Below, piece after piece: positions 2,973 to 54,868 of a DNA stretch of 54,868 bases (within the stretch, counting starts at the first letter, position 1; each line of letters begins with the position of its first letter). The notes under the pieces were generated by a model. It was not told the DNA's origin. It saw only the letters and a list, made by a program, of their open reading frames with translations, and ran no database searches. Where the stretch lies: assembly GCF_000332335.1 (NCBI RefSeq), contig NZ_KB235948.1:5916169-5971036 (forward strand). Reading direction: 5' to 3'. The DNA comes from Kamptonema formosum PCC 10802 (lineage in GTDB: Bacteria > Cyanobacteriota > Cyanobacteriia > Cyanobacteriales > Oscillatoriaceae). Both the position numbers and the translations under genes were made by a program.

Positions 2973-3005
2973 AGAAACCCGGTTTCTTAAAGAAACCGGG
3001 TTTCT
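2973..3005. repeat. AGAAACC-GGTTTCT palindrome
   Basis: Two arms of AGAAACC/GGTTTCT type joined by TTAA. The same palindrome forms the core of the elements at 23458-23564 and 27280-27375, and half-copies occur near 14731, 32899 and 34368. Here it lies just past the protease stop codon, so it may also shape the 3' end of that mRNA. Confidence 0.75.
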
Positions 3006-10443: not shown

Positions 10444-11241
10444 TCAGAAAAAAGGCTGATTTATCCCAAAGCAATCGCAGATTAGCCGCAACTCAAAGTC
10501 CGACATTCCCGCAGCCGGCTCCCCCGCCCGCAGATTCAGGTACTCGTAGTGCGCCGCCGTTTCCGCATATTCCACCAAATCCCCCGCCTTGCGAACACCG
10601 GCATCCGCGTGGGTGACAATGCCGTGCCGCCGCCAGATTGCGGCGCGATGCGATCGCAGCGGCTCCACCGTAGCTTCCGCCAGATCCTGCGAACCCGGAA
10701 CCAGAAAAGGCAGCACCCCAATCCCCTCAGGAAACTCCAGAATCGTTTCCGGCTGCCAGCGCAGCAGCCGCCGGTTAAAAGCGAAAGTCTCACTGTAGGC
10801 GTCGAGATGGCTGAGGTAAGTCAGGTAAAGCGGCTGGGCGTGGACAACCGCGTGTTCCGACAAAGAGCGCCGAGCCACATGGTCATTGTGAATCGCCAGG
10901 TGCGAGTTGAACTCACTCGTGGGGCGCAGATCCGAAGCCGCATAGATTTCCCCGGCCTCGCCCCCCTGTTGAATGTGCAGCAGGCAGAGCGTGGTATCTG
11001 GATTGCGGGCCAAATCCCGCAGCCGGCGTCCCGAACCGCTGACGATCAGCCAGCCGCCAGAGAGCGCCGGTACTGTCACCGGCAAGTCGATCGAGCCGCG
11101 CGAGCGAAACCGGCTGTCCATCTCTGGCAGGTTGCGCAAAAAGACGGAAATATTGCCGGCAGCGCCCTCCGCCGCATTGATTTGCGCCATGCGCCGGCCC
11201 ACATCGCCGATTTCCCAGAGAATGTCTTTAAGGCTGTGCAT
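10444..11241 (-). CDS. Class II aldolase, rhamnulose-1-phosphate aldolase (RhaD)-like
   Basis: A 265-residue class II aldolase/adducin-family protein. The segment FPEGIGVLPFLVPGSQDLAEA closely matches the E. coli RhaD segment FPDGVGILPW...VPGTD, and the overall length agrees. RhaD splits L-rhamnulose 1-phosphate into dihydroxyacetone phosphate and lactaldehyde with a Zn ion bound by three histidines. Here the first (VVHAQ) and last (RRHGIV) are present, but the second His of the HxH pair reads Gln, so the metal site may be altered. The ATG at 11241 is preferred to a TTG 33 bases upstream: a GGAG sits before the ATG. That ribosome-binding site lies at the end of the dispersed leader repeat 11251-11353. 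No other rhamnose genes are nearby. Confidence 0.75.
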   Translation of the reverse strand: MHSLKDILWEIGDVGRRMAQINAAEGAAGNISVFLRNLPEMDSRFRSRGSIDLPVTVPALSGGWLIVSGSGRRLRDLARNPDTTLCLLHIQQGGEAGEIYAASDLRPTSEFNSHLAIHNDHVARRSLSEHAVVHAQPLYLTYLSHLDAYSETFAFNRRLLRWQPETILEFPEGIGVLPFLVPGSQDLAEATVEPLRSHRAAIWRRHGIVTHADAGVRKAGDLVEYAETAAHYEYLNLRAGEPAAGMSDFELRLICDCFGINQPFF

Positions 11242-11250
11242 GAGAGAGTA

Positions 11251-11353
11251 TCTCCGTTGTGCAAAGAAGCCCAAATGAATGCGACAATGATGTCAGCAGG
11301 GGGTAGGAGGAGAAGATTTTTGGCCAGCGAATCAAAGGAAACGGGATTGAAAC
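11251..11353 (-). repeat. Dispersed leader repeat, copy A (upstream of rhaD-like gene)
   Basis: Read on the minus strand it begins GTTTCAATCCCGTTTCC, passes through CTGGCCAAAAA and CATTGTCGCATTCATTTGGG, and ends with the CAACGGAGA that contains the ribosome-binding site of the rhaD-like gene. Copies B (19995-20098) and C (53426-53530) match it along the whole length with scattered substitutions. All three point the same way relative to the gene they precede. Confidence 0.9.
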
Positions 11354-11376
11354 GAAACGAGTCCCACATTTGCCCG

Positions 11377-11427
11377 ATGAAGAACCCCACCCCCCAACCC
11401 CCTCCCCGCGTTTCGGGGAGGGGGAGT
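11377..11427. repeat. C-rich/G-rich hairpin repeat
   Basis: A run of ACCCC-type sequence leads into the hairpin CCCCTCCCCG / CGGGGAGGGG (11399-11423). Relatives are at 14950-15000 and 44080-44118 (there around CGAAGCG). It lies between the converging ends of transcription units in the rhaD-cysH spacer and could serve as a 3'-end structure, but no T-run follows. Confidence 0.65.
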
Positions 11428-11490
11428 CAGAGGGGTTTTCCATGAGTGGAAAAAGTTTCAATCATCGTGGTGCGACGCCCACCCCACTGT

Positions 11491-13916: not shown

Positions 13917-14151
13917 GGGTTAGGGGTTGGGGGTTGGGTTTCATCGATTATCCCACGCCCAATGCGGGCCCGCCCCATGCGATCGTGCCCGTCACTTTTT
14001 CCCCTCACACACTTGTGTGAGAGCGGCGGCATCTCACTCAACATACTGGCGGGAGAAGGGGAGAAAATTGCGATTAATCTTAGCTCTCAGACCAGATTCT
14101 CGCGTTCCCAGACAGAGCCTGGGAACGCAATCTGGAGGCAGAGCCTCCTTT

Positions 14152-14321
14152 TATAGCAGCAGTCATATTGGTTAGGACAATCGGAGCTTCGGGAGCTGGG
14201 GAGTTCGGGAGCGAGGGAGGCCGGAATGTACGTTCCCTAAAAGCCTACTGCTATATAGACGTAGGGGGGGCGTCCCGCCTGCCCTGAAGGTCTAATGTCC
14301 TAATCTAAGTGGCTACTGCTA
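14152..14321. mobile_element. Miniature inverted-repeat element, family 1
   Basis: Begins TATAGCAGCAGTCATATTGG and ends CTAAGTGGCTACTGCTA. The ends are imperfect inverted copies around TAGCAG...CTGCTA. An inner TACTGCTATATAGACGTAGG junction shows the composite two-part structure seen in other copies. There is no coding capacity, so it would need a transposase from elsewhere. Confidence 0.8.
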
Positions 14322-17990: not shown

Positions 17991-18153
17991 TATAGCAGTA
18001 TGCACTTAGGTTAGAAGATTAGACCTTCAGGCTCGGCGGACGCCGTACCTACGTCTACATAGCAGTAAACATTTAGGAAACCTACATTCCTGCCTCCCTT
18101 GCTCCAGAGCTCCCGAAGCTTCTATTGTTCTAACCAATATGACTGCTGCTATA
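17991..18153. mobile_element. Family 1 miniature element, left of coaE
   Basis: Starts TATAGCAGTATGCACTTAGG and ends CCAATATGACTGCTGCTATA. It is nearly identical along its length to 18926-19088 and in the same orientation. Together they bracket coaE. Confidence 0.85.
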
Positions 18154-18303
18154 TCTTGGGAAAGTCGGTATAATAATGATACACCGGCACGGCTGCTTTT
18201 TAGCTCCAGCGTCATGGAGCCCACCGGCAATCTCAGAACCCCCAGCGATCCGCCCCTGGGAATTTCGGGGAGTTGCCTCTCGCGGTGCGGTAAACTAAAC
18301 AGC

Positions 18304-18925: not shown

Positions 18926-19088
18926 TATAGCAGTAGCCACTTAGATTAGAACATTAGACCTTCAGGCTCGGCGGACGCCGTACCTACGTCTATAGAGCAG
19001 TAAGCATTTAGGAAACCTACATTCCGGCCTCCCTTGCTCCAGAGCTCCCGAAGCTTCTATTGTTCTAACCAATATGACTGCTGCTATA
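18926..19088. mobile_element. Family 1 miniature element, right of coaE
   Basis: Starts TATAGCAGTAGCCACTTAG and ends CCAATATGACTGCTGCTATA, seven bases after the coaE stop. It differs from 17991-18153 at only a few positions. Confidence 0.85.
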
Positions 19089-19165
19089 TCAGGCACCCTA
19101 CAAATACTTCCCCCCCCTTTTATAGGGGCGGTGCCATCCACGGAAACCGCCCCGGCAGGGGGGAT

Positions 19166-19996
19166 CTACTTTTGCAATTTCTGAGCGGTTCTCAGAATCT
19201 GGCCAGCTAAAATAGCTGCGCCAAAGCCGTTGTCGATATTCACTACACCGACACCGGCTGCACAAGAATTGAGCATTGTCAACAGGGGGGCCAGCCCGCC
19301 GAAACTCGCGCCATAGCCGACACTGGTGGGCACAGCAATCACGGGACAGTCTGCCATACCGGCAACGACGCTCGGCAGCGCGCCTTCCATGCCGGCAACT
19401 ACGACTAGCACCTCCGCCGCAGCCAGGACATGGCGGTTGCTCAGCAGCCGGTGAATGCCGGCAACCCCGACATCCCAGAGGCGGTTGACTTGGAAGCCGC
19501 ACAGCTCTGCTGTGACAGCTGCTTCCTCCGCCACCGGCAGGTCGGCTGTGCCGGCACAGAGGACCGCAATGGTGCCGGCATACCGGGGCTCGAGGGGCGC
19601 AGGGACGGTGGCGCAAATGCGAGCCTCCCGGTAGTAGTACAGGCCGGCAATTTGTTCCTGCAGCGTTGCGTAAACTGCCGGCTCGATGCGAGTGGCCATC
19701 ACCACAGGGTTGCGGTGGCGCATGGCTTCTATAATCTCAGCGATTTGGTCAGGGGTTTTGCCCGGACCCCAGATCACTTCTGGAAAGCCGGTGCGCAGCG
19801 TGCGGTGGTGGTCAATTCGGGCAAACTCGCCCACCGGCTCAAAGTCAAAGTGCTTCAGTTTTTCCAGGGCGGCGTCTGGACTGACGCTGCCACTGGCAAC
19901 GGCTTGGAGCAAGGATTGCAGGGCTTCAGGTTCAGTCACGGTATCAGGGAGAGAGGGTAGTGGGAATGGGGCGCTGGGTTTTTGATTGGGGAGCAT
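19166..19996 (-). CDS. larB: LarB, nickel-pincer cofactor synthesis (PurE-like carboxylase)
   Basis: A 276-residue LarB. It carboxylates nicotinic acid adenine dinucleotide and cleaves the phosphoanhydride, the first step towards the nickel-pincer nucleotide of lactate racemase. The C-terminal half is AIR carboxylase (PurE)-like: AVLCAGTADLPVAEEA, VVVAGMEGALPSVVAGM and PTSVGYGASFGG are characteristic. larC and larE are not in the window. The ATG at 19996 lies at the very end of leader repeat copy B, with only a weak GGGG before it. A GTG at 19939 (VTEPEALQSL) would match the shorter starts of homologues. The exact start is therefore uncertain, while the family call is firm. Confidence 0.9.
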   Translation of the reverse strand: MLPNQKPSAPFPLPSLPDTVTEPEALQSLLQAVASGSVSPDAALEKLKHFDFEPVGEFARIDHHRTLRTGFPEVIWGPGKTPDQIAEIIEAMRHRNPVVMATRIEPAVYATLQEQIAGLYYYREARICATVPAPLEPRYAGTIAVLCAGTADLPVAEEAAVTAELCGFQVNRLWDVGVAGIHRLLSNRHVLAAAEVLVVVAGMEGALPSVVAGMADCPVIAVPTSVGYGASFGGLAPLLTMLNSCAAGVGVVNIDNGFGAAILAGQILRTAQKLQK

Positions 19997-20098
19997 CCCC
20001 GTTGTGCAAATCTGCCCAAATGAATGCGACAATGATTTCAGCAGGGGGTAGGAGCGGATGATTTTTGGCCAGCTGAATCCCGGAAACGGGATTGAAAC
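19995..20098 (-). repeat. Dispersed leader repeat, copy B (upstream of larB)
   Basis: On the minus strand it runs from GTTTCAATCCCGTTTCCGGG to the CAACGGGGAT that contains the larB start region. In this copy AATCCCG-TTTC-CGGGATT forms a perfect 7-bp hairpin that is partly lost in copies A and C. Confidence 0.9.
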
Positions 20099-20244
20099 TT
20101 TGATTGTAGCGAAATCCCCAACTCCCCGCATTTAATATCCTATTCCTCTGCGGCTTCAATTTTGTCCGCGTTCCAGTCTGCGGACCGGGCAGTGCTGTCC
20201 CGGCTGATTGTTTATGTCCCGCACAGCCTCCCACTCGGACAGGG

Positions 20245-20265: not shown

Positions 20266-20724
20266 AAGAATCTCAGAGCTTAGCCCGCTTAAGCGCCCCG
20301 GCTCACCCCTGCCGCAAAAATTCGCCAAAATGGCATCAGCTCGCTTATTTTATGATTTAAATTATTAATAGCCAGCAGCCAGGTAGACTTTTGCTGGCGG
20401 GGGCATCTATTCTGACGCGCGCATCCGCAGGCGCATCTGCCGGGGGGCGGCAAACCGCCACAACTCCGACTGCTTGCGCTGGCAGCGAGACAGGAAACCT
20501 TCAAAGCAATCTTCAGGGCGCACTTTACAAACACCCGCTCAAGTGCGAGGATACAATATCTCAGTACCTCGGCGAAACTGGTTTTCGCTCAAAAATGTTT
20601 CATCGCGGCTCCTATTGCGGAGTTTTTCATGGGAATCGCACTTGTGAACTTCCAGCTTCGCACTGAGAGGTTGGCAAAGATTGGTAGCGCCCTGGACTGA
20701 AATCAATCCCACCCGAAAAGGAAG

Positions 20725-20884
20725 TATAGCAGTAGCCACTTAGGTTCGTACATTTCGGCCTCTTTTGCACCCCCGCACTCCGGCTCCTATTGTCCTAACC
20801 CACATTACTACTGGGATATAGACGTAGGCCAGCGTCTGGCTGCCCTGAAGGTCTAATGTTTTAACCTAAGTGCATACTGCTATA
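20725..20884. mobile_element. Family 1 composite miniature element
   Basis: Begins TATAGCAGTAGCCACTTAGG, has an inner ACTGGGATATAGACGTAGG junction and ends CCTAAGTGCATACTGCTATA. Bases 20885-21386, up to the solute-binding gene, contain no convincing gene. A short plus-strand frame (21007-21237) with one hydrophobic stretch is not supported enough to call. Confidence 0.75.
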
Positions 20885-21386
20885 TAACCAGTAAACCTTG
20901 ATTGCAGGTCAACTCTTAAAAATCCGGGATGAGAAAGGGAGTTTGAAGTGTCTGGCTAAACCGAAATTTTATCGCCCCTATTCTCACCCCCGGTTTTTGG
21001 AATCAGTTGACGGACTCTCTAGGCAACGTCTTGACAATGCAGTGGAGGATTAGATCCGTGAAAACAAGCTTCTTAGAAATCGCCATCACCGCAGTCTTGT
21101 GGGTTTTGGCTTTGGTTATCACCGCCAACCAGAAAATTAATTCCAGAAGTGCCGGTGCAATCAGCTTGAACCTGCAAGCCCCCCAGCTGCAGAGCGTCAA
21201 ACCGCTACCTGTATATTGGCCGGCCCCCTTTATGTGATAAGCTGTTAGGCTTATAATCCTGCCTGTCTGCCCACAGGAGGCAGAGCCTCCAGGACGTCGT
21301 TCCCAGCCTGAGGCTGGGAACGAGGGATAATCTGGTTTCTTGATGTTTGGTTTAGTTGTGCCCACCTCCTTAAGGAGGCTGCCGGT

Positions 21387-23202: not shown

Positions 23203-23625
23203 TTACTGGGATTGCAGCCAGCCGTTAGCGCAGCGCCCCCGCAGGGGAAGGAAAGTTTCGGCGCTGCTGAAATAATTATACACGCCGGCTTCCCGCAAAG
23301 CCTCTCGCACTTCCGGGAAAGCCATCGTCAGTGACATTTCCACTCACAAACACCTTGACTGCACAAGGGATGCCAGCGGGCGTGTCCCAGAATGCAGTGC
23401 AAAATCAGGCTGTCTGTCAGATATGTAATCCGATTTGTCTGCAAGTTTTCCTCAAACATATAGCGCGTCCTATCCCTTCGTGTAAATTTCATAAAACCGG
23501 TTTCTTTAAGAAACCGGTTTTATGGGCCAAAAGCGTTTGCGCAAATCATTTAGACTCGCTATATATCAGGTGCAAATCCTGACAGGGCTTCCCTGTAACA
23601 AACCTCCGGTATCGCCAGGTTAATT
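23203..23625 (-). pseudogene. Degraded duplicate of the PIN-domain gene, interrupted by a miniature element
   Basis: Bases 23203-23457 align with the 3' part of the intact PIN gene (25464-25695), including the TAA stop, but carry an extra GC-rich insert near 23222 and frame-breaking changes. Bases 23567-23622 align with an internal segment near 25914-25960 (shared GACAGGGCTTCC, GGTATCGCCAG). The part between is deleted, and a miniature element (23458-23564) sits in the gap. It is the leftover of the duplication that gave the second solute-binding gene. Confidence 0.8.
23458..23564. mobile_element. Family 2 miniature element inserted in the PIN pseudogene
   Basis: Ends ATATAGCGCGTC and GACTCGCTATAT are inverted copies. 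The core is an AAAACCGGTTTCTTTAAG-type palindrome. Comparing with the empty site in the other duplicate (GCATATCAGG, 25691-25700) shows the flank TATCAGG resuming directly after the element, consistent with insertion at TA/ATA and duplication of it. Confidence 0.8.
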
Positions 23626-27279: not shown

Positions 27280-27375
27280 TATAGCGTTTCTCAGTGGGAT
27301 GCACTATGGCCCAGAAACCCGGTTTCTTTAAGAAACCGGGTTTCTCAGTACCTCACTACTATGAGAAACGCTATA
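27280..27375. mobile_element. Family 2 miniature element
   Basis: Ends TATAGCGTTTCTCA and TGAGAAACGCTATA are perfect inverted repeats. The core is the AGAAACCCGG/CCGGGTTTCT palindrome (27313-27345), as in 23458-23564. It lies in the 477-base spacer between ispF and trmD, which has no other recognisable feature. Confidence 0.8.
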
Positions 27376-32504: not shown

Positions 32505-32543
32505 CAATCCCCTGATTTGAGAGCTGATTTATAGAGTAAATAT

Positions 32544-32713
32544 TATAGCAGCAGTCATATTGGTTAGGACACGCTATGGCCCAATTGCCGGCTGCTATAT
32601 CAGAGGTTAGAGGCCGGTTTATCGGTGTTGTAGCTGTGTGGCACAGGTTGTGGGTGAACCCGCCCCTACATTATGTTAAACCCCAAGTCCTAACCTAAGT
32701 GCCTACTGCTATA
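32544..32713. mobile_element. Family 1 miniature element
   Basis: Starts TATAGCAGCAGTCATATTGG and ends CCTAAGTGCCTACTGCTATA. The interior differs from other copies and includes a GTGAACCCGCCCCTAC segment. Confidence 0.8.
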
Positions 32714-32942
32714 AATGCCAGTCAGCGCCCAGTCGGGGAAAGATCCCTCCCCTACTCGCCACTAAAAAAGGAGGGTCACTCTTATAGCCAACCCTTGTAG
32801 GGGCAGGCAGCCCACGGAGACTGCCCGTTGGGGGGATAGCGATTTTCTCTATAAATGACTGTACTCCGTCAGCGGTCTTGCCGGATTTCTCCCACACCAA
32901 GAAACCCGGTTTCTGAACCGATTTCTGGCCCATTAGCTGTTT

Positions 32943-33106
32943 TATAGCAGCAGTCATATTGGTTAGGACAATAGGAGCTTTGGGAGCGGGGGAGCCAGGG
33001 AGGCCGGAATGTACTTTTCCTAAATGCCTACTGATATATAGACGTAGGGCAGGCGTCCCGCCCCCCCTGAAGGTCTAATGTCCTAATCTAAGTGGCTACT
33101 GCTATA
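32943..33106. mobile_element. Family 1 composite miniature element
   Basis: Starts TATAGCAGCAGTCATATTGG, has an inner TACTGATATATAGACGTAGG junction and ends CTAAGTGGCTACTGCTATA. It closely resembles 14152-14321. It lies about 60 bases past the 3' end of the methyltransferase gene. Confidence 0.82.
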
Positions 33107-33167
33107 ACAATTACTTTATAGATCGGCTCTTAGCAGGCAGCTCCTCCCCCCCAAGGGAGGAGCGACA

Positions 33168-33923: not shown

Positions 33924-34136
33924 AGTTCGAGTAGGAGCGGGTTGACTAGCAATATATCCGGGAAGCAGTGGGTATCTATAAACCCGCCCCCAGACAGAAA
34001 AGTTTCTTTAGTCTATAATACCATTAGCATCCTTCAACCGCAAATCCTGGGCGTGCCGGCTCTCCGCACAACCCCAGCACAGGCCGAGCTAAAATGAGCG
34101 GCAGAGGGGGGAGATTGGCACAAGCGTTCCGCTTGG

Positions 34137-34294
34137 TATAGCAGTGCACAGTCAGTTTAGGACACGCTTGATACGAATTATAGGCGCAGGTACGGCGTCG
34201 CGCTGGCGCGCCGCTACGCTAACGCCTGCCCTCAATATTTCTGGGACAGGCGAGACGCCTGTCCTACGTCCTAACCTAAGTGCCTACTGCTATA
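34137..34294. mobile_element. Family 1 miniature element
   Basis: Starts TATAGCAGTGCACAGTCAG and ends CCTAAGTGCCTACTGCTATA. The interior has the GGACAGGCG/CGCCTGTCC hairpin module that also occurs alone at 838-909. Confidence 0.78.
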
Positions 34295-34435
34295 AAGGCG
34301 GGTTCAGCGAAGTCTCAACAAACCGCCGTTCTTCTGGCGGTCAAGCGGGCAAATTCCTGTACAGAAAGAAACCCGGTTTCTGGCTCCGGCGCGGGAGGAC
34401 AAATCCGCTTGCATCGGTTTTCTATACATAGGGTT

Positions 34436-43560: not shown

Positions 43561-43870
43561 GCCCACCGGCACCCCCCATCCCATCGCCCCCCTCGCCCCG
43601 TCCGCACGCCGGGCAAAGCCACCCCGGCAGCCCCCTAAATCCGGTTAATTACTTTCCATCTTTCCTGGGGCCGGCCCCCAGCAGCAACTTATATGAGTCT
43701 ATAAACGGATTATGTGAATTTATATGATTTTTTAAATCCTAAAAGCTTTTAAAAAATAGCTTTTGCAGTTGCTGAAGCAAAATATATTTTCTAATTTATG
43801 ATAGATTGCTTATCTTAAACTAGCCCGCGAAGGCGGGCTTCGTCTGTATAGCGGCAGGTTTCAACCTGCC

Positions 43871-44030
43871 GGATGGTGCCGGATGGTGCCGGATGGTGCC
43901 GGATGGTGCCGGATGGTGCCGGATGCTCCCGGATGCTCCCGGATGCTCCCCGATACTCCCGGATGGTGCCGGATGCTCCCGGATGCTCCCCGATGCTCCC
44001 CGATGCTCCCGCCGGGTGCCGGATGGGGCC
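43871..44030. repeat. 10-bp minisatellite, 16 units
   Basis: Sixteen head-to-tail units of GGATGGTGCC or GGATGCTCCC with a few variants (CGATACTCCC, CGATGCTCCC). Because 10 is not a multiple of 3, the array reads through all frames. The ORFs crossing it are repeat artefacts. Confidence 0.95.
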
Positions 44031-44126
44031 GGATGATAAAGCATACAAACAGAAATATCCAGCCCCCCCGACCATCTCCCCCCTCCCCGAAGCGCGGGGA
44101 GAGGGATAGGGGGTGGGGTCAACCCC

Positions 44127-48580: not shown

Positions 48581-48772
48581 GGCGAAAACCCCATTAGCAA
48601 CCCGCACAGACGTCTTCCAGCGGCACTTTTTGGCTATAACCCCCTATTAATTCGCCCACAAACCCATCTTCTTTAAGTATTTAATCCCAAGCGTATAAAA
48701 AACCTACACTTGTAAGGTGTCTAGCTCCCCACTTCCGGCTCTTGGAACAGGCAAGATGCCCGTCGGGCGAGG

Positions 48773-49035
48773 TATAGCAGTATGCACTTAGGTTAGTACA
48801 TGGGCATCATCGCATCATCGCATCATCGCATCATCGCATCATCGCATCATCGCATCATCGCATCATCTCATCATCTCATCATCTCATCATCGCATCATCG
48901 CATCATCGCATCATCGCATCATCGCATCATCGCATCACGCAAAAGCTGTGAGTCTTTCCCATGCGCACGATCCCGATGCGCATGACCCCCATAAGCCATG
49001 TCATTAATGTCTTAACCAATATGACTGCTGCTATA
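48773..49035. mobile_element. Family 1 element with expanded 8-bp minisatellite
   Basis: Starts TATAGCAGTATGCACTTAGG and ends CCAATATGACTGCTGCTATA. Between about 48805 and 48936 lie some 16 units of CATCATCG (three variant CATCATCT units in the middle). The rest, including ATGCGCACGATC and the CATAAGCCATGTCATTAATG end, matches element 14346-14568 read on the other strand. A partial second half follows at 49036-49104. Confidence 0.88.
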
Positions 49036-49172
49036 TATGCGCAGGGCCGGCGTTCCCTCCGACCCTCACTGTCTAATCCCCTCACCAATTTGGCTACTGC
49101 TGCCAAGGAAAAATAAACAGCAAAAAACACTAGCAGCTAGCAACTAGCAAGACGAAGCAACGAACAGAATCT

Positions 49173-53425: not shown

Positions 53426-53530
53426 GTTTCAATCCCGTTTCCTTTGATTCACTGGCCAAAACTCTTCTCCCGCTCCAACCTGCTGAAGTAATTGTCGCAT
53501 TCATTTGGGCTTCTTCGCAACCGAGACGCT
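53426..53530 (+). repeat. Dispersed leader repeat, copy C (upstream of moxR)
   Basis: Starts GTTTCAATCCCGTTTCC and passes through ACTGGCCAAAA and ATTGTCGCATTCATTTGGG, ending CAACCGAGACGCTCCC, 19 bases before the moxR ATG. It is the same sequence as copies A and B, again in the sense orientation. Confidence 0.9.
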
Positions 53531-53548
53531 CCCGGAACATCTACCAAT

Positions 53549-54457
53549 ATGAGAGAAAATATAGACCGGCTGACGAAAAATTTAGGCCAGACCATCGTTG
53601 GGAAAGCGGACGCCATCCGTCTCGTCCTGGTGGCCCTGCTAGCCGGCGGCCACGCCCTGCTAGAAGATGTCCCCGGCGTCGGCAAAACCCTGCTGGCCAA
53701 ATCCCTGGCCCGCTCGATCGCCGGCAAATTTCAGCGGATTCAGTGCACCCCGGACCTCCTCCCCACAGACATCACCGGCACCAACATCTGGAACCCCCGC
53801 AGCGGCGAGTTTGAATTCCTCTCCGGGCCGGTGTTTGCCAATGTATTGCTCGCCGACGAAATCAACCGCGCCACCCCCCGCACCCAGTCCGCCTTGCTGG
53901 AAGTGATGGAAGAGCACCAAGTCACCGTGGATGGCGTCACCCGTCCCGTTCCCAGCCCCTTTTTTGTGATTGCCACCCAGAACCCCATCGAGTATCAAGG
54001 CACCTTCCCCCTCCCAGAGGCGCAGATGGACCGCTTCGCCCTCTCCCTGTCTTTGGGGTATCCGACGGAAGCAGAAGAATTTCAAATCCTGCAGCGGCTT
54101 CAGGAAGGCGTCACCGTTGAGGAGCGCCAGCCTTCCATCGCTCTGGAGGAAGTGCTGGAACTCCGCCGGCTCTGCAGTAAAGTCAAGCTGGAAACCTCTT
54201 TGCAGCAGTACATCCTCAACCTGGTGCGGGCGACCAGGGAAGATGAAGAAATTACCCTCGGTGTCAGCCCTCGCGGTGCGGTGGCCCTGCACCGATCCAC
54301 GCAAGCCCTGGCCTTTCTTGCCGGTCGGGAGTACGCTATTCCCGATGATGTCAAGTATCTGGCTGTGCCGGTGCTCTCCCACCGGCTCATCCCTGCCGGT
54401 GGTCGCAGGGCCAAAACAGTCGTCGAGCGGCTGTTGCGCTCGGTTCCGATTCCTTAG
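53549..54457 (+). CDS. MoxR-family AAA+ ATPase
   Basis: A 302-residue MoxR-type AAA+ ATPase. Walker A is GVGKTLLAKS (about residues 44-53), Walker B LLADEINRA (about 99-107) and sensor 1 ATQNPIEYQG (about 143-152), with the conserved LPEAQMDRF segment after it. MoxR proteins act as chaperones for assembling metal- or cofactor-containing complexes and are usually followed by a DUF58 or VWA-domain gene. Here no such gene follows, only the 128-bp tandem repeat. The ATG at 53549 is the natural start; an in-frame TTG at 53492 lies within leader repeat C. Confidence 0.9.
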   Translation: MRENIDRLTKNLGQTIVGKADAIRLVLVALLAGGHALLEDVPGVGKTLLAKSLARSIAGKFQRIQCTPDLLPTDITGTNIWNPRSGEFEFLSGPVFANVLLADEINRATPRTQSALLEVMEEHQVTVDGVTRPVPSPFFVIATQNPIEYQGTFPLPEAQMDRFALSLSLGYPTEAEEFQILQRLQEGVTVEERQPSIALEEVLELRRLCSKVKLETSLQQYILNLVRATREDEEITLGVSPRGAVALHRSTQALAFLAGREYAIPDDVKYLAVPVLSHRLIPAGGRRAKTVVERLLRSVPIP

Positions 54458-54496
54458 TTGGGATGGTCTCATCGGGCATTGGGCATCGGGCATTGG

Positions 54497-54868
54497 GTGT
54501 TGACATTTGCCGCTGCTATTTTGTGTACCAATGGTACACATCTGTAATTTCCGGGCCGGGGTGCTGGCCTCTGGGGCCGCTATTTTCTGTGCCGGTGGCA
54601 GACTGTTGTGATTTTCAGGCGGGGGTGTTGACATTTGCCGCTGCTATTTTGTGTACCAATGGTACACATCTGTAATTTTCGGGCCGGGGTGCTGGCCTCT
54701 GGGGCCACTATTTTCTCTGCCGGTGGCAGACTGTTGTGATTTTCAGGCGGGGGTGTTGACATTTGCCGCTGCTATTTTGTGTACCAATGGTACACATCTG
54801 TAATTTCCGGGCCGGGGTGCTGGCCTCTGGGGCCACTATTTTCTGTATCAATGTTAGAAATATATGAT
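54497..54868. repeat. 128-bp tandem repeat, nearly three units, continuing past the window
   Basis: GTGTTGACATTTGCCGCTGC recurs at 54497, 54625 and 54753, exactly 128 bases apart, with few differences. Each unit contains the inverted repeat GTGTACC-AAT-GGTACAC and a GGCCTCTGGGGCC palindrome. No stable coding frame is evident. Confidence 0.92.

Follow-up and report, generated by a model that had tools for sequence, protein, structure and literature searches.

A probable MITE-like element of Kamptonema formosum PCC 10802 with an ISKra4-type right end and a left end resembling a type I-D CRISPR repeat

A repeat which precedes three genes in a 54,868-nucleotide stretch of the genome of Kamptonema formosum PCC 10802 (NCBI RefSeq assembly GCF_000332335.1, contig NZ_KB235948.1, positions 5,916,169 to 5,971,036; the whole stretch is called the window in the following) can with good confidence be regarded as a MITE-like, non-autonomous DNA transposon of 110 bp, with a right end of the ISKra4 type and a left end derived from a CRISPR repeat. 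That the repeat is portable, as the initial annotation had suggested, was borne out by target-site duplications, by many copies and by an empty site in G002, a genome of the same genus. Its features in the window are:

11244-11353, minus strand: copy A, 110-bp element, immediately before a rhamnulose-1-phosphate-aldolase-like gene (ATG 11241)
19989-20098, minus strand: copy B, 110-bp element, upstream of larB, with a perfect 8-bp duplication and the hairpin AATCCCG/CGGGATT
53426-53533, plus strand: copy C, in front of a gene for a MoxR-like AAA ATPase (ATG 53549)
19981-19988, plus strand: first target-site duplication of copy B, TTTGATTG; GGTT precedes (the AACC target motif on the element's strand)
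20099-20106, plus strand: second target-site duplication of copy B, TTTGATTG
20071-20098, minus strand: bases 1-28 of the element in copy B, its CRISPR-repeat-like left end, which agrees with the genome's type I-D repeat at 27 of 28 positions
19989-20008, plus strand: inward reading of the right end of copy B, GGGAGCATCCCCGTTGTGCA, an inverted repeat of the ISKra4 type; the consensus of the family is GGGAGCATCCCGGTTGTGCA, which equals GGGAGCATCCCGTTTTTGCA at 18 of 20 positions

Copies, duplications and target sites

As had been claimed, the three copies match along their whole length; end-to-end alignment gave identities of 85% between A and B over 108 nt and of 88% between A and C over 94 nt, and the hairpin reported for copy B is present. 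Copy A has a mutated right end and no remaining target-site duplication; copy C has no visible duplication, and TACC stands at 53542-53545. Two nucleotides separate the end of copy A from the ATG at 11241, with GGAG ten bases before that ATG, and 15 nt lie between the end of copy C and the ATG of the moxR-like gene at 53549 (the MoxR label is that of the initial annotation; NCBIfam gave related ATPases, below cut-off). The start of larB is ambiguous: it is called 49 nt downstream of copy B, and an open frame reaches back through the copy to an ATG at 20131, a frame which the LarB model matches only from residue 106 on. The statement that copies extend to the ribosome-binding site or the start codon thus holds for copy A; for copy B it would depend on the true start of larB.

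A search of the complete genome (G000, 8.59 Mb) with copy A yielded at least 41 places with E values from 9e-51 to 9e-29 (40 of 108 candidates were scored). With a hidden Markov model built from 30 copies and applied to 90 fetched loci and the window, at least 87 near-full-length copies above a threshold of 60 bits were counted, which corresponds to about ninety copies in the genome. Fragments below 60 bits (C3:2591582, 3688709, 6646619) and the repeats of the CRISPR array were excluded before counting, and a further copy, C3:6432828 (L110), was found later and stands outside the 87. The copies are 101-114 bp long, with exactly 110 bp in 55 of the 87. They are short, contain no transposase gene and are dispersed in large number, as is expected of MITEs. 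Some diverged copies (L058, L063, to the left of the element, and C3:6203757) have incomplete tandem copies of the tip in front of them, e.g., TTTCAATCCCGT, as if the end had been reused.

The distribution of the element is narrow. An exact pattern from its inner part was found, in the named genome collection, in five contigs of Oscillatoria princeps RMCB-10 and in no other organism; among 60 relatives, the mobile element was present in three genomes of the genus only, a fourth match (G012) being due solely to CRISPR repeats. Searches of plasmids and phages (blastn with copy B) and of viral contigs (one exact pattern) gave no match.

Duplications were scored by comparing the 8 bases before GTTTC with the 8 bases after GCTCCC, small offsets being allowed. 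They were exact in 18 of the 87 copies and had one mismatch in 10 more, the numbers expected from shuffled pairs scored alike being 0.22 and 0.51, respectively; in G002, 13 of the 44 copies examined had an exact 8-bp duplication. For one locus, that of copy B, the empty site could be recognized in G002, between GGGTGTTGGGT and ACCCAACACCC: the matches of the two flanks overlap there by exactly 8 bases, with a single TTTGATTG as against two in the window. The region of copy A is also absent from G002, where 11242-11476 are replaced by about 40 bp; the surroundings are rearranged, and hence there is no clean empty site.

The flanks of 79 copies were tabulated, 8 of the 87 with incomplete right ends being omitted. 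A motif lies to the right of the duplication: of these copies, 52 have A at position 10, 57 have C at position 11 and 53 have C at position 12. Among the copies with fresh duplications (n = 26), NAC[CT] was in register on the right in 19 and one base off in 4 more, and on the left in one. An 8-bp duplication accompanies insertion, and most of the sites used have NACC or NACT to their right; at the site of copy B, the empty locus of G002 reveals that AACC was present before insertion. The orientation relative to the motif would be fixed by the difference between the two ends of the element. In fresh copies of G002 the motif was in register in 7 of 14, and beside symmetric elements that share the IS ends and have clear duplications (n = 22) it was in register on one of 44 sides and within one base on three; the symmetric element L205 does have TACC. 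Since the motif is nearly absent beside symmetric IS-type elements and relaxed in G002, it cannot simply be ascribed to ISKra4 transposases as such. Loops of hairpins or terminators were also considered as targets and rejected, the best inverted repeat around the target having a mean of 3.77, compared with 3.71 in controls, even though the empty site of copy B is itself flanked by GGGTGTTGGGT and ACCCAACACCC.

Other repeats occur in the window as well. A further family (14148-14321, 17991-18155, 18926-19090, 20721-20894, 32541-33116, 34133-34304 and 48769-49114), with the pieces TATAGCAG(T/C)AG and CTGCTATA, is probably a second MITE. Palindromes of the type AGAAACCCGGTTTCTT-TAAGAAACCGGGTTTCT were seen at 2973-3005, 23491-23523 and 27313-27345, and tandem repeats of 10 bp (GCCGGATGGT) at 43866-44035, of 8 bp (CATCATCG) at 48805-48940 and of 64 bp at 54495-54814.

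The two ends of the element

The right end of the element, read inward, is GGGAGCATCCCG and matches the inverted repeats of insertion sequences of the ISKra4 family (Mutator-like) in other genomes of the order. The pattern GGGAGCATCCC[AG]TTTTTG, with at most one mismatch, was present in 108 of 243 genomes of the order, compared with 5 hits in total for the reversed pattern as control. Elements of 1773 bp (two), 1316 bp and 1218 bp with these ends had exact 8-bp duplications and ISKra4 transposase genes inside: the family model NF033572 matched with E 8e-75 in the 1316-bp element of G166 and with E 2e-47 and 3e-13 in two transposase pieces of G088, and the 1218-bp element was assigned by the position of a family hit. 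With ISKra4 elements the 110-bp element shares the right end and the 8-bp duplication, and not the left end; identities to the canonical inverted repeat are 18/20 for the right end, 11/20 for the left end and 10/20 for the CRISPR repeat. In 12 of 87 copies the right end contains CCCTTGA and lacks the CGGGAT part. The refuting condition named in the initial annotation, that the copies be ends of a known transposon, applies in part: each copy is a complete small element, of which one end does belong to a known IS type. According to the part of Guerillot et al. 2014 consulted (PMC3942029), these Mutator-like families have duplications of 8-9 bp and a conserved terminal cytosine, and which way round the promoter-targeting families insert depends on the dissymmetry of their inverted repeats.

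A search for the ISKra4 transposase family gave no match in any of G000, G001, G002, G003, G006 and G007, and thus none in the three genomes of the genus; positive controls gave 107 matches in G166 and 6 in G088. A protein search, run with no positive control, likewise found no such transposase in six genomes. The mobilizing enzyme of the ISKra4 family, which is deduced from other genomes, may have been lost or may be too diverged. The pattern search for right ends revealed a second, symmetric family in G000, with ends GGGAGCATCCC...GGGATGCTCCC and, in some members, 8-bp duplications; L094-L109 are symmetric elements of 120-566 bp with varied interiors and represent a second ISKra4-type MITE family. 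The 1898-bp L061 was considered as an autonomous element and turned out to be a symmetric MITE containing other insertions.

The left end led to the CRISPR system of the same genome. A large array is located at about C3:6789872-6806211, with the repeat GTTTCAATCCCGTTGCCGGGATTCAGCTATAGGAAAG; 210 repeats were found, 205 of them identical, and the array adjoins cas1d, cas4, cas6, csc1, csc2 and part of csc3, whose end alone lies within the fetched stretch, i.e., it is of type I-D. The first 28 bases of the element correspond to 28 of the 37 bases of this repeat, from the repeat edge inward. Over these 28 nt, 7 of the 87 copies are identical to the repeat and 25 more have one mismatch (32/87 within one). 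The local match between the repeat and the consensus of the element had a score of 25, compared with a maximum of 15 in 3000 dinucleotide shuffles of the repeat. The resemblance to CRISPR repeats which the initial annotation had pointed out is therefore stronger than stated there, since in copy B 27 of the first 28 bases are those of the genome's own repeat, and it looks like true homology. The CRISPR repeat and the canonical inverted repeat both carry ATCCCGTT at the same distance (6 nt) from edge and tip, respectively, which may explain why a CRISPR repeat could serve as an end. The leader of the array appears to lie towards the cas genes, in which case the repeat in crRNA sense would be the reverse complement, ending in ATTGAAAC; a length of 8 nt for the crRNA handle is given in the section of PMC10212523 consulted. 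A CRISPR-like G at base 15 was in excess in diverged copies (10/26 v 10/61, p 0.049), a weak signal. The array flanks were rejected as the source of the inner part: the inner 64 bp, which were compared with these flanks only, showed chance matches of 9-10 nt.

The core of the repeat (25 nt, at most 2 mismatches) was found in 21 of 236 genomes of the order; 3 of the 21 belong to the genus and the other 18 do not, and of these 18 several contain single copies of the core only, and others long regular arrays. In nine genomes belonging to other families (G010, G012, G060, G115, G131, G151, G169, G170, G233) the repeat type is present with several to many hits each, regularly spaced in all but G010, for which a count alone was available; the repeat of G012 was read directly as GTTTCAATCCCGTTGCCGGGATTCATTAATAGGAAAC. 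The inner 82 nt of the element gave no match in any of these nine, compared with 41 matches in G002. Since these nine genomes of other families thus have the repeat type without the element, the likely direction is from CRISPR repeat to transposon end.

Single CRISPR-repeat-like 25-mers were seen outside the genus at G166:C17, G179:C6, G128:C78, G147:C41 and G195:C46, three of which read GATTCAATCCCGTTGCCAGGATTCA; these are possibly solo repeats of crRNA-like modules. The array of about 210 type I-D repeats (L031, C3:6780000-6799999, and L032) has other inserted DNA inside, and a block of spacers is repeated in nearly the same order (L031 14289-16483 and 17456-19505).

Placement relative to genes and leader function

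Gene calls were made with our own hexamer script, not a standard tool, and by these calls none of the 87 copies lies wholly within a gene and 11 overlap a gene edge, the coding fraction of the fetched loci being 0.64. The right-hand gene was in sense in 72 of 86 cases, compared with about 52% expected for random intergenic insertion, a value obtained by arithmetic on base counts of element-free intergenic DNA. The p value of 1.4e-10, which assumes 0.5, overstates the effect, since copies between divergent genes always face a gene in sense; for this reason the tandem contexts provide the fair test. Of 41 tandem copies in G000, 33 were in sense and 8 in antisense (p 1.1e-4); 38 further copies were in divergent and 6 in convergent contexts, and 2 had one neighbour unknown. 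Distances to the start codon ranged from -21 to 1230 nt.

For copies with fresh duplications the right-hand gene was in sense or antisense in a ratio of 20 to 7, for the others of 52 to 7. Sixteen of the 44 G002 copies share both flanks with copies of G000 (two of these loci are neighbours about 120 bp apart, and one right flank is only 69% alike), and every one of the 16 has its right-hand gene in sense, 5 being tandem, 10 divergent and one with an unknown left neighbour. For the G002 copies with no flank match in G000 the ratio was 15 to 10, with one undetermined, and their tandem bias was not significant (9 v 4, p 0.27); nor was the difference between shared and remaining copies within G000 (p 0.063). 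A strand bias of the target motif was rejected as the cause of the orientation, since element-free intergenic DNA between tandem genes contains ACC and GGT in equal measure (875 v 895). The sense bias appears to grow with the age of the copies, which points to retention more than to insertion. The upstream sense placement described for the three genes of the window therefore holds as a bias in G000, in the tandem contexts as in the 16 shared loci, and does not reach significance in the copies found in G002 only.

Conserved RNA structure, which the initial annotation had suggested looking for, was sought with RNAalifold in 53 distinct copies of 110 nt; no shared fold was found, with alignment energies, which stand without shuffled control, of -1.1 kcal/mol in sense and -8.1 kcal/mol in antisense. 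Folds of the single consensus had z-scores of -1.3 and -1.7 versus letter shuffles. The hairpin arm CGGGATT is exact in 57 of 87 copies and replaced by AAAGATTC in 14 and by TTTGATTC in 9. Rfam had no match at the gathering score within the window, and neither a sigma-70-like promoter nor a terminator-like site was found around copy B. In the 79 right flanks, searched with a simple consensus, there was no signal for a promoter at a fixed distance from the right end, including a sigma-A promoter 13-17 bp from the end as in p-MULT; promoter targeting in the manner of the ISKra4 group was accordingly rejected, and so was, for want of a conserved fold, a fixed riboregulator. These results lend no support to a conserved RNA structure or to a built-in promoter, and the conserved leader of the initial annotation gives way to a transposon-like element. 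We take the leader-like placement to result from insertion and retention, exaptation being occasional. Local effects are possible; judged from its sequence, the GGAG of copy A could be a Shine-Dalgarno sequence.

Origin and comparison with known systems

The following origin may be envisaged. An ISKra4-family transposase, absent today from the genomes of the genus that were searched, would once have paired its normal end with a nearby CRISPR repeat, which, carrying ATCCCGTT 6 nt from its edge like a true inverted repeat, could have served as a surrogate second end. The chimeric unit of IS end and CRISPR-repeat end would then have multiplied. Sense copies upstream of genes were seemingly kept longest, and some copies may now form part of gene leaders.

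The opposite weighting, i.e., a portable regulatory leader (promoter, riboregulator or mRNA-stability element) kept by selection, with mobility as an incidental property, appears rather doubtful. It would agree with the tandem sense bias in G000, with the uniform sense orientation of the 16 shared loci as against 15 to 10 among unmatched copies, and with the equal frequencies of ACC and GGT, by which the motif does not account for orientation. Perfect duplications and the empty site indicate, however, that copies arrive by transposition; the 53 aligned copies lack a conserved fold, the surroundings of copy B a promoter and the window an Rfam match, the distances to start codons vary from slightly overlapping to more than a kilobase, and shared and remaining copies do not differ significantly within G000.

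With regard to direction, it is very unlikely that the CRISPR repeat was derived from a transposon end, as has been proposed in general for casposons: the 7 copies identical to the repeat over 28 nt would be compatible with such a derivation, but the repeat core exists in nine genomes of other families which do not have the element. Integration by the type I-D adaptation machinery (Cas1-Cas2-Cas4) instead of a DDE transposase, with the GGTN beside the duplication as PAM, is likewise very unlikely. The left end does begin precisely at the edge of the repeat, ordinary IS-type elements hardly ever have the motif next to them, and the target, read in the crRNA direction, is GGTN-N8, which contains the type I-D PAM GTN, perhaps by coincidence. 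Yet duplications of 8 bp and the right end held in common agree with ISKra4 elements, the motif is relaxed in G002, and integration by Cas1-Cas2 duplicates a whole repeat, as is also described in the part of PMC10212523 consulted.

The preferred reading, an ISKra4-mobilized element with a borrowed CRISPR repeat, could perhaps be extended. A Mutator-like system that adopted the host's CRISPR repeat might have scattered about 90 solo repeats that have kept their interaction with the type I-D machinery, in that Cas6d cuts read-through transcripts or that Cas1-Cas2-Cas4 seeds new arrays or chooses GTN-flanked targets, and that are retained in sense before genes as regulatory leaders; we consider this extension unlikely. 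Solo repeats spread through a genome should be testable for Cas6 or adaptation activity, and the fresh, old and shared copies form a natural series for asking whether selection keeps sense copies upstream of genes. A CRISPR repeat acting as an end would show how little an end needs for recognition.

With the type I-D array repeat the element shares 28 of 37 nt, the stem and, in the crRNA direction, the 8-nt ATTGAAAC. In contrast to an array with its regular spacers, the copies of the element are single; they have no spacers and no leader, 9 nt of the repeat are missing, and CGGGATT is inexact in 30 of 87. CRISPR-associated Tn7-like transposons of type I-D are transposons linked to type I-D repeats, and Tn7 has TGT/ACA ends and a 5-bp duplication. 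The 110-bp element differs from these in ends that are not TGT/ACA, in a duplication of 8 instead of 5 bp, and in its small size with no genes. Correia elements have a 2-bp duplication, TA. The ends and the duplication length of the 110-bp element are different, and no sigma-70 match was found around copy B; like Correia and other promoter-bearing MITEs, as characterized in an excerpt of PMC10969869, it is short, has many copies and is often located upstream of genes.

Closest are the insertion sequences of the ISKra4 family (ISMich2 group) and their MITEs, prokaryotic Mutator-like elements of p-MULT 4 (PMC3942029), with which the 110-bp element has one end, the 8-bp duplication and the terminal G/C in common. 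The relative in G088 has its transposase in two frames, as is described for ISMich2; the placement in the ISMich2 group is putative. The 110-bp element is distinguished from ISKra4-family elements by the CRISPR-repeat-like second end, the oriented NACC/T target, a genome in which no transposase was found, and the lack of a promoter signal at a constant distance from the right end.

The reverse case, in which CRISPR repeats have received MITE insertions, is reported in the part of PMC4852346 consulted. Among the matches listed in open-licence literature on CRISPR repeats and transposons or on cyanobacterial MITEs, titles and openings of abstracts mentioned no MITE with a CRISPR-repeat end. Each of the three components, the MITE, the ISKra4 element and the type I-D repeat, is known already; their combination in a CRISPR-repeat-ended MITE was not met among the papers listed. 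The casposon hypothesis holds that transposon ends gave rise to CRISPR repeats. Here the flow seems to be reversed, in that a present-day CRISPR repeat became the end of a transposon.
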